NCBI GenBank assembly: GCA_030611105.1
Contig: JAUWQL010000011.1
Coordinates: forward strand, 1-43,630
DNA: 43,630 nucleotides
Direction: 5' to 3'
Source: Bacteroidales bacterium
GTDB taxonomy: Bacteria > Bacteroidota > Bacteroidia > Bacteroidales > UBA12077
Shown here: positions 31,894 to 32,509 of the stretch, piece after piece
How the letters are laid out: the number at the start of each line of letters is the position of its first letter
Position numbering within the stretch: position 1 is the first letter of the stretch
The notes under the pieces: model-generated
Database searches by the model: none
Seen by the model: the letters and a program-made list of their open reading frames with translations, nothing else
What the model was told of the DNA's origin: nothing
Program-made: the position numbers and the translations under genes

Positions 31894-31901
31894 TATATTT
31901 G
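31894..31901 (+). promoter_or_regulatory. -7 box of the tRNA cluster
   Basis: TATATTTG is an exact -7 match, 24 bp before the first, broken tRNA copy. It implies that the broken copy was once the first gene of a two-tRNA transcript. Confidence 0.55.
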
Positions 31902-31925: not shown

Positions 31926-32030
31926 GGCGAGGTAGCTCAGATGCCTGCCTGCTGCCCGCCTGCCGGATGGACAGGTCAGGCAGGGTTAGAGTGTCCCGAT
32001 TTTTATCGGGAAGGTCGCGAGTTTAAAAAC
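31926..32030 (+). pseudogene. Broken tRNA copy carrying a GC-rich palindrome insertion
   Basis: The first 18 bases (31926-31943) are identical to the 5' end of the intact tRNA-Met at 32048. A 41-bp GC-rich palindromic sequence (31944-31984) then interrupts the D-loop, after which the match resumes with GTTAGAG. The anticodon arm is replaced by TCCCGAT-TTTT-ATCGGGA, whose loop cannot present an anticodon, and the T-arm and 3' acceptor strand no longer pair. This cannot be a working tRNA. Confidence 0.8.
31944..31984. repeat. GC-rich palindromic insertion inside a tRNA copy
   Basis: The 41 bp begin CCTGCCTG and end CAGGCAGG, a perfect 8-bp inverted repeat. Inside is a second imperfect palindrome (CCTGCCGGATGGACAGG). 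The element shares its ends with the 20-bp palindrome at 8547-8566. Its position exactly between bases that are adjacent in the intact tRNA shows that it was inserted. Confidence 0.8.
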
Positions 32031-32047
32031 GATATTGAGAAAATAAT

Positions 32048-32121
32048 GGCGAGGTAGCTCAGATGGTTAGAGCGCATGATTCATAATCATGAGGTCGGCG
32101 GTTCAATTCCGCCTCTCGCTA
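32048..32121 (+). tRNA. tRNA-Met (CAT), elongator type
   Basis: 74 bases with a full cloverleaf: acceptor GGCGAGG pairing with TCTCGCT (two G-U pairs), D-stem GCTC/GAGC, anticodon stem CATGA/TCATG with loop TTCATAA (anticodon CAT), variable AGGTC, T-stem GGCGG/CCGCC with loop TTCAATT, and discriminator A. It is not the initiator: the acceptor begins with a pair and the anticodon stem lacks the three G-C pairs. A lysidine-modified tRNA-Ile with CAT is the alternative. CCA is not encoded. Confidence 0.93.
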
Positions 32122-32122
32122 C
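32092..32122 (+). repeat. 31-bp direct repeat, left copy (3' end of the intact tRNA)
   Basis: These 31 bases (variable loop to one base beyond the discriminator) recur without mismatch at 32443-32473. The two copies are 351 bp apart and bracket the GIY-YIG gene, as attachment-site duplications do around integrated elements. Confidence 0.85.
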
Positions 32123-32126
32123 ATTG

Positions 32127-32155
32127 AAAAGCAGGTCGAATTGACTTGCTTTTTT
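32127..32155 (+). terminator. Intrinsic terminator after tRNA-Met
   Basis: Arms AAAAGCAGGTC and GACTTGCTTTT, loop GAATT, one G-U pair, then further T's. It separates the tRNA from the GIY-YIG gene. Confidence 0.8.
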
Positions 32156-32173
32156 GATAATAAAAAAGTTTGA

Positions 32174-32419
32174 ATGTATTATGTATACATTATATATAGC
32201 AAAAAAAGAGATAGTTTTTATGTTGGATATACTGCAAATATAAATTCCAGAATCACTAAACATAATGCAGGAGCAACAATTTCAACTAAATCAGGAATTC
32301 CATGGAAATTAGTTTATAGTGAACAATATGTAACTAAAACTGAAGCAATAAAGCGAGAAAAGGCTATAAAGAAGAAGAAAAGCAGGAAATATATTGAGTA
32401 TCTTATTACGATGAATTAG
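32174..32419 (+). CDS. Small GIY-YIG nuclease, single domain
   Basis: 81 residues forming one GIY-YIG domain. The motifs VYIIYS (5-8 region) and YVG (16-18) stand for GIY and YIG; Arg26 (SRITKHN) and Glu57 (TKTEAIKREKAI) are the expected catalytic Arg and metal-binding Glu. Such short proteins (YhbQ/UPF0213-like) are common in Bacteroidota, and their DNA substrate is not established. The gene begins 53 bp after tRNA-Met. Its last codons and TAG stop (ATGAATTAG) fall in sequence matching the D-arm of the tRNA, so the 3' end of the gene is fused to a partial tRNA copy. Together with the 31-bp repeats, this suggests a tRNA-associated mobile unit. Confidence 0.88.
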   Translation: MYYVYIIYSKKRDSFYVGYTANINSRITKHNAGATISTKSGIPWKLVYSEQYVTKTEAIKREKAIKKKKSRKYIEYLITMN

Positions 32420-32473
32420 AGCGTCCCGATGTATTATCGGGAAGGTCGGCGGTTCAATTCCGCCTCTCGCTAC
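32412..32473 (+). pseudogene. 3' tRNA-Met fragment fused to the GIY-YIG gene
   Basis: From the D-loop onward the sequence follows tRNA-Met (TTAGAGCG, then 31 identical bases to the 3' end). The anticodon arm is replaced by TCCCGAT-GTATT-ATCGGGA, whose loop has G in place of the invariant U33. There is no 5' half: the GIY-YIG coding sequence stands in its place. The same TCCCGAT/ATCGGGA arm is found in the broken copy at 31926. Confidence 0.85.
32443..32473 (+). repeat. 31-bp direct repeat, right copy
   Basis: It is identical to 32092-32122, the 3' end of the intact tRNA-Met, and marks the right end of the GIY-YIG unit. Confidence 0.85.
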
Positions 32474-32475
32474 TT

Positions 32476-32509
32476 AAAAAGCGGTTAGGGTTTTCTTAAT
32501 CGTTTTTTT
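32476..32509. terminator. Bidirectional terminator between the tRNA region and the LacI gene
   Basis: AAAAAGCGGTTA pairs with TAATCGTTTTT with one bulged base and a G-U pair, flanked by A's and T's. It overlaps the stop codon of the LacI-family gene. Confidence 0.65.

Follow-up and report, generated by a model that had tools for sequence, protein, structure and literature searches.

A recurrent GIY-YIG nuclease unit beside bacterial tRNA genes suggests an unrecognized family of miniature mobile elements

Introduction

Elements that integrate at the 3′ ends of tRNA genes restore the tRNA and displace a fragment of it. I-TevI-like enzymes usually have a separate DNA-recognition domain, and both the I-TevI domain and SLX1 act on DNA. 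For UPF0213 proteins, we know of no linkage to tRNA genes.

In T-even phages, the GIY-YIG homing endonuclease SegB is tRNA-linked and amplifies a tRNA segment, according to the available part of one source (PMC13096335), and the accessible text of another gives its target as a tRNA intergenic region (PMC2988022). Fungal mitochondrial mobile ORFs replace the ends of genes and displace the native ones; the accessible part of the source names atp6, atp9, cox2 and nad3 of Glomus and atp6 of Allomyces, the mobile ORF of the atp9 case being a GIY-YIG one (PMC3630166).

Here we analyse a window of 43,630 nucleotides from a Bacteroidales bacterium, in which a small GIY-YIG gene lies between an intact tRNA-Met gene and a displaced part of it. 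The layout recurs widely and suggests an unrecognized family of miniature mobile elements that leave the invaded tRNA intact.

Results

Anatomy of the tRNA-Met unit

In the window, an intact tRNA-Met(cat) gene (32048..32122; tRNA call, Rfam tRNA 69.9 bits) is separated by 51 nt from the ORF of a single-domain, 81-aa GIY-YIG nuclease (32174..32419; ORF list, PF01541 with E 2.1e-17 and a structure model). A displaced tRNA-Met part, tRNA positions 20–75 (32416..32473), overlaps the end of this ORF, and all three lie on the plus strand. The two tRNA ends share 31 identical nt (32092–32122 and 32443–32473) at a spacing of 351, and the final codons and stop of the nuclease gene (ATG AAT TAG) fall within D-arm-like sequence. 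A preliminary description, made from the letters of the DNA, had claimed this order across 32048–32473, the identical ends and the D-arm-like gene end, and each of these holds. Its further claim that the nuclease is the only protein, with no integrase, agrees with the same-strand ORFs of at least 40 aa from tRNA-Met to the displaced 3′ part, of which the GIY-YIG gene is the only one; a tRNA-integrating element with a tyrosine or serine integrase was rejected on the same ground. A group I intron or tRNA intron was also rejected, as no intron family in Rfam matches up to E 1 and the tRNA is uninterrupted.

The anatomy given in that description was incomplete, as hairpin substitution, the upstream half, a 5′-side class of units and arrays were absent from it. 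In the displaced 3′ part, the hairpin TCCCGATGTATTATCGGGA (32424..32442, plus strand) replaces the anticodon arm. Upstream of the intact tRNA-Met lies a displaced tRNA-Met 5′ part (31926..32024, plus strand), composed of tRNA positions 1–18 (31926–31943), a D-loop hairpin (31944–31984), a stretch between its two hairpins (31985–31993), an anticodon-arm hairpin (31994–32011) and a T-stem start of the GCGAG type (32012–32024). Further upstream, we read by eye a promoter-like TATATTTG (31894..31901, plus strand), which we take to resemble the Bacteroidota −7 motif; relatives that lack the displaced 5′ half have a similar stretch shortly ahead of their intact tRNA. A sigma-70 promoter scan gave 2 sites against 3.0 in shuffles. 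Between tRNA-Met and the nuclease gene, a hairpin with a T-run (32127..32155, plus strand) looks terminator-like by eye and is absent from the list of the terminator scan; the scan did return a terminator-like hairpin beyond the displaced 3′ part (32476..32508, plus strand).

The window's genome contains 11 PF01541 hits. The order of tRNA, nuclease and displaced part seen at the Met unit is found again at a tRNA-Asn gene (L009) and, mirrored, at tRNA-Arg(acg) (L003). At L005, a tRNA 3′ piece with hairpins follows the nuclease by eye, without an intact tRNA.

The nuclease and its tree

The structure model of the 81-aa protein shows one GIY-YIG domain (mean pLDDT 93.4) and no separate DNA-recognition domain. 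Its nearest solved sequences and folds are UPF0213 (1zg2, 1ywl) and SLX1. The invariant columns of 24 sequences include Y5, Y16, G18, R26, H30 and E62, which we take to be the catalytic residues of the GIY-YIG domain. Within four tRNA-type groups, dN/dS was 0.06–0.30 where not saturated, and by this measure the nuclease gene is under purifying selection.

In the window's genus, 20 genomes gave 131 matches, from which 93 loci were taken; those left out were mainly long frames of ∼450 and 600 aa. The genus tree comprises 76 proteins, 17 having been excluded (four with stops, seven matches shorter than 140 nt and six in frames above 300 aa). One clade of 42 rows (support 99/95) contains all rows near a tRNA: 30 of its 42 rows lie within 250 bp of a tRNA, compared with 0 of the 34 rows outside, and the remaining 12 have no tRNA within that distance. 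In three genus genomes, the GIY-YIG domain sits within frames of 875–881 aa (L022, L028, L033) at a locus without a tRNA. On a wider tree of 99 rows, the tRNA isotype changed 33 times, whereas 300 shuffles gave a mean of 70.8 and a minimum of 64; after thinning to 66 rows, there were again 33 changes, with a shuffled mean of 48.1 and minimum of 42. As these counts are far below the shuffles, lineages tend to keep their isotype, yet they have switched it many times. Both trees rest on few columns and have many weak forks.

Recurrence beside tRNA genes

To widen the set, we used five Met-type proteins as query on genome contigs and kept the best 80 of at least 135 relatives. In 58 of these 80 loci, a tRNA lies on the same strand within 150 bp, and many isotypes are represented; no tRNA was found on the opposite strand within 150 bp in any of the best 80. 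The 58 linked loci come from Bacteroidota, Chlorobiota together with Ignavibacteria, Patescibacteria and a few unplaced records. Among the other 22, 12 are within 300 bp of the end of the locus sequence and seven have a tRNA 167–450 bp away; at the remaining three (L186, L190 and L219), the locus is without a tRNA.

At least 14 exact nt of the linked tRNA are repeated beyond the nuclease in 44 of the 58 linked loci among the best 80, a count that is unchanged when only the nearest tRNA is tested, and such a copy is missing in 14. With tRNAs of other isotypes as control, at least 14 exact nt were found in 13 of 291 sampled pairs and in 74 of 2980 exhaustive pairs. A duplicate of the gene end beyond the endonuclease ORF, as in gene-end-replacing mobile ORFs, thus occurs in 44 of 58 loci and in both classes of unit described below. 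The preliminary description had suggested looking for short GIY-YIG genes next to partial copies of the adjacent tRNA, and this is the pattern obtained, with the copy preceding the gene in the mirrored class. An accidental neighbourhood of nuclease and tRNA, which that description had named as the alternative, was rejected on these figures (58 of the best 80 on the same strand within 150 bp; 44 of 58 compared with 74 of 2980 controls).

Of 198 genomes sampled from the window's order, 64 match the profile at E 1e-20 or better, a count of profile matches irrespective of a nearby tRNA. Tandem copies in the order's genomes are in many cases ∼330–385 bp apart, and some are spaced at 294–623 bp. The window protein had no match at E 1e-5 among 50,697 phage and 72,556 plasmid records, and a scan of viral contigs with query A2 gave no relative.

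Two classes, hairpins and arrays

The units fall into two classes. Leaving out eight loci with a tRNA called on both sides, class A (tRNA, nuclease, displaced 3′ part) accounts for 79 of 99 rows and the mirrored class B (displaced 5′ part, nuclease, tRNA) for 20. In class A copies with at least 16 matched nt (n = 59), 52 retain tRNA position 53, 30 retain position 22 and only seven retain position 31. The anticodon arm is thus mostly lost from the displaced copies, often to a TCCCG..CGGGA hairpin. Where the gap at the anticodon arm could be read (30 of 74 copies), a hairpin of at least five pairs fills it in 27, in 20 of them of the strict TCCCG..CGGGA form; the exceptions are L189, L265 and the reverse reading of L201. 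This replacement of arm by hairpin is seen at several isotypes, and most displaced pieces also lack one side of the acceptor stem. Class B pieces, by eye, mostly carry hairpins in or near the D loop, with other sequence in Patescibacteria, where L200, L206, L238, L243 and L245 are class B units at tRNA-Ser and tRNA-Tyr; no clear hairpin was seen by eye in the class B locus L232.

Covariation was assessed in 30 distinct hairpins hand-picked for the TCCCG type, one of them being TTCCG. Pair 6 is kept in 30/30 with three pair types (reached by 0.0002 of shuffles) and pair 7 in 29/30 with four Watson-Crick types (0 of 5000 shuffles), and pair 8 of the same hairpins showed no covariation; kinship among the hairpins and their selection by hand keep these figures from serving as a clean test of significance.

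Several loci are arrays, in which mainly the nuclease and broken tRNA pieces are multiplied. L031 and L080 each hold two displaced 5′ parts and two nuclease units (one L031 nuclease has a stop), L293 has five upstream pieces with three nuclease units, and L305 at least six upstream pieces with one nuclease unit. Nested insertion, by which upstream and downstream pieces should always be equal in number, held for L031 and L080 and failed for L293 and L305. Such tandem arrays suggest repeated action. The L018 array stops at a contig end, and the L305 and L213/L310 arrays hold runs of N, so arrays may be collapsed in the assemblies.

ARAGORN called displaced halves as extra tRNAs of other identity: three 'Leu taa' calls at L290 (1463–2290) are Val pieces, a 'Cys gca' call at L201 is an Asn piece, and a 'Pro tgg' call at L191 follows an Ala unit. 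Automatic tRNA counts can therefore be inflated.

Palindromes outside the unit

Within the 43.6 kb, there are two TCCCGA..TCGGGA matches and one CCTGCC..GGCAGG match, all inside the tRNA pieces. Genome-wide (3.77 Mb), these palindromes have 82 and 107 matches, some of them within open stretches of at least 100 codons, and their restriction to the unit was rejected on this basis. TCCCG hairpins per genome had a median of 33.5 in genomes with such GIY-YIG genes (n = 64) and 13 in those without (n = 134). Their excess over control had medians of 21 and 7, respectively (p 2.9e-7, a statistic that ignores kinship and lifestyle).

Occupied and empty sites at the Met locus

In the window's genus, an SRPBCC gene neighbours all 17 of the 17 Met loci with an intact tRNA. 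An intact nuclease is present in G000, G002, G005, G010 (two), G012, G016 and G017, the one in G002 belonging to another lineage. Unit parts at contig ends are found in G004 and G015 and, by eye, a unit remnant in G013, a tRNA end only, after other filler, in G003 and G008, and an upstream piece only in G001 and G009. The site looks empty by eye in G006, G007 and G011. G014 has tRNA-Met at a contig edge plus a separate piece, and no Met-locus match was obtained in G018 and G019. The SRPBCC neighbour most similar to that of the window (87%) is in G007, at a site without the unit, and the most similar LacI neighbours are in G015 (96%) and G004 (88%), which both show it. Empty sites in relatives, as the preliminary description had proposed looking for, were thus found here and at the Ala locus of Flavobacterium; occupied and empty alleles of one site, the mark of homing endonucleases, occur at these two loci between species only.

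In the T-stem strand, the displaced 5′ part reads GCGAG, as in G007, G009 and four others, and the intact tRNA reads GGCGG. This match of T-stem type is suggestive, resting on few bases. The Met locus of G002 (L039) holds a GIY-YIG gene from outside the Met clade, probably an independent invasion of the same tRNA-Met gene. By eye, L105 (G008) and L106 (G003) repeat tRNA-Met end 58–75 past filler with ATCAAAACAAA / TTTGTTTTGAT ends and without a GIY-YIG gene.

Terminators at the Ala locus of Flavobacterium

The Ala locus was defined by an enoyl-CoA hydratase neighbour, present in 75 of 81 genomes. We took the 30 best-scoring loci, of which L342 had no tRNA, and added three, giving 32. Twelve of the 32 are occupied (L310–L313 were chosen for holding the gene, and the L327 nuclease is broken) and 20 are not; among the unoccupied, L316 and L318 retain upstream pieces, whereas in L329, L335 and L340 the tRNA lies in the opposite orientation, and these three may represent a different site. 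The kind of tRNA does not differ between species that carry the unit and those that lack it.

An element-type terminator, CCCAA(A/G)CA, comes next after the intact tRNA at 8 of the 12 occupied loci and at 0 of the 20 others (Fisher p 4.7e-5; 1.2e-4 without L329, L335 and L340), with terminator types defined post hoc, after inspecting the flanks, and in related species. Conversely, native-type terminators, the types of the unoccupied sites (matched by 8 of 20 of these, L337 only loosely), stand after the displaced half in 7 of 12 occupied loci and after the intact tRNA in 0 of 12. Against this pattern, the displaced half has the element-type terminator in L317 and L341, neither type fits it in L313, L330 and L336, and the flank of the intact tRNA in L336 resembles those of the unoccupied L331–L333. 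From the terminator pattern, we read the displaced half as the native end and the intact tRNA as having gained its end with the unit; this is supported at this one locus, with L317, L341 and L336 not fitting. As to whether the new gene end is foreign, the T stem has its other common allele in L311, L317 and L321 of the Ala set; in the window, the two tRNA ends are identical. Plain target-site duplication is less likely at the Ala locus after this comparison and is still compatible with loci elsewhere.

Discussion

Our best reading, to which we give a probability of about 0.6, is a miniature, selfish, homing-like element of tRNA genes with a tRNA-restoring end. In such a scheme, the single-domain GIY-YIG enzyme would nick or cut tRNA-gene DNA in or near the anticodon arm, or at the D arm in the 5′-side class, and repair would copy in the unit from an occupied allele. 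Because the incoming unit would carry a tRNA 3′ part along with a terminator and the nuclease gene, it would immediately complete the resident tRNA's 5′ part and move the native 3′ part, still followed by its own terminator, downstream. By bearing a hairpin instead of the anticodon arm, or within the D loop, the displaced half may have lost the target while keeping its homology arms, and repeated action or unequal recombination could then yield the tandem arrays. Of the homing-like element proposed in the preliminary description, restoration of the tRNA with displacement of the native end finds support at one Flavobacterium locus, and cutting and transfer are steps that we infer.

Several lines of evidence argue for the homing-like reading: tRNA linkage in 58 of the best 80 of at least 135 relatives and far-side copies in 44 of the 58, the 30/42 and 0/34 rows of the genus tree, the isotype pattern on the wider tree, purifying selection, occupied and empty Met and Ala sites, the Ala terminator pattern, covarying hairpins and the kinship of the fold. 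Other observations speak against it. The enzyme has no separate DNA-recognition domain, and an intact tRNA should stay a target. The tRNA 3′ parts are often identical (31/31 nt in the window), an outcome expected equally of import and of local duplication or conversion, and upstream and downstream pieces are unequal in number in L293 and L305. A copy of at least 14 nt is missing in 14 of 58 linked loci, for 12 of the 42 rows in the genus clade no tRNA lies within 250 bp, and the Ala terminators misfit in L313, L317, L330, L336 and L341, with types defined post hoc. In addition, the two tRNA ends share at least 20 nt of 3′ flank in 17 of 44 cases, as plain tandem duplication would give, and where the shared stretch runs beyond the tRNA in this way such duplication is possible.

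These shared flanks, like the tandem near-identical units and identical tRNA halves, would also be expected if tRNA loci recombine unequally and a GIY-YIG gene that had landed there was duplicated with the tRNA pieces, the enzyme being inert in the spread. We regard such a passive passenger as unlikely, given that one layout occurs at many isotypes in several phyla, that isotype tracks the tree far better than shuffles, that the nuclease gene is under purifying selection and that other GIY-YIG clades of the genus are never near a tRNA (0 of 34 rows).

Somewhat less probable again, the enzymes may be hairpin-handling, structure-directed nucleases: tRNA-gene DNA extruded as a cloverleaf would be cut at the base of an arm, the arm would be swapped for the palindromic hairpin of the unit, and the palindromes TCCCG..CGGGA and CCTGCC..GGCAGG dispersed in these genomes would have arisen through the same enzymes or act as their non-autonomous partners. 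The replacement of arm by hairpin, the covariation, the kinship with SLX1 and the excess of TCCCG palindromes are in line with this proposal.

We doubt still more that the host retains the nuclease because cutting beside a tRNA gene alters tRNA copy number. SegB, a GIY-YIG enzyme near tRNAs that amplifies a tRNA segment according to the available text (PMC13096335, PMC2988022), is a precedent, and L290 has three intact tRNA-Val copies; however, the arrays multiply mainly the nuclease and broken tRNA pieces, and presence is patchy between species. Least probable of all is an RNA-level system, with tRNA or pre-tRNA as the enzyme's substrate and the hairpin-bearing pseudo-tRNA pieces serving as decoys or antidotes. 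In its favour, the displaced pieces resemble tRNA and have covarying hairpins. Against it, the nearest solved relatives of known activity (SLX1, the I-TevI domain) are DNA nucleases, tRNAs of one kind occur in species that carry the unit and in those that lack it, and one side of the acceptor stem is missing from most displaced pieces.

A literature search, with preprints and most subscription papers outside its reach, found no earlier description of such units. If the homing-like reading holds, free-living bacteria harbour in their tRNA genes very small mobile elements (∼350 bp, one 80-aa protein) that leave the tRNA unharmed, and a profile match in 64 of 198 genomes of the window's order makes them look common. 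The units also account for some of the surplus tRNAs that look odd in annotations, and they are a simple system in which to study how one tRNA gene is located by a single-domain nuclease.

The units share a restored tRNA and a displaced fragment with integrative elements at tRNA 3′ ends and differ from them in having no integrase, a length of ∼350 bp and a hairpin-altered fragment. UPF0213 proteins and the structure-specific endonuclease SLX1 are closest among solved sequences and folds (1zg2, 1ywl, SLX1), whereas SLX1 chains are ∼300 aa long and comprise more than a GIY-YIG domain, their C-terminal zinc-finger domain being absent from the 81-aa single-domain model. With SegB and the free-standing T-even GIY-YIG homing endonucleases, the units have in common a GIY-YIG gene beside tRNA genes and the multiplication of a tRNA segment, but the available parts of the sources mention no displaced tRNA half with a hairpin for SegB (PMC13096335, PMC2988022). 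The present units are chromosomal and encode one domain of ∼80 aa, the window protein having no phage match at E 1e-5. In the fungal mobile ORFs, too, the new 3′ end of the gene and its displaced native counterpart flank an endonuclease ORF; they concern mitochondrial protein genes, with no hairpin substitution mentioned in the accessible text (PMC3630166), whereas the units here occupy bacterial tRNA genes and include a 5′-side class. Overall, the units read as working like a blend of SegB and the Glomus mobile ORFs, but bacterial, minimal and with a hairpin marking the displaced half.
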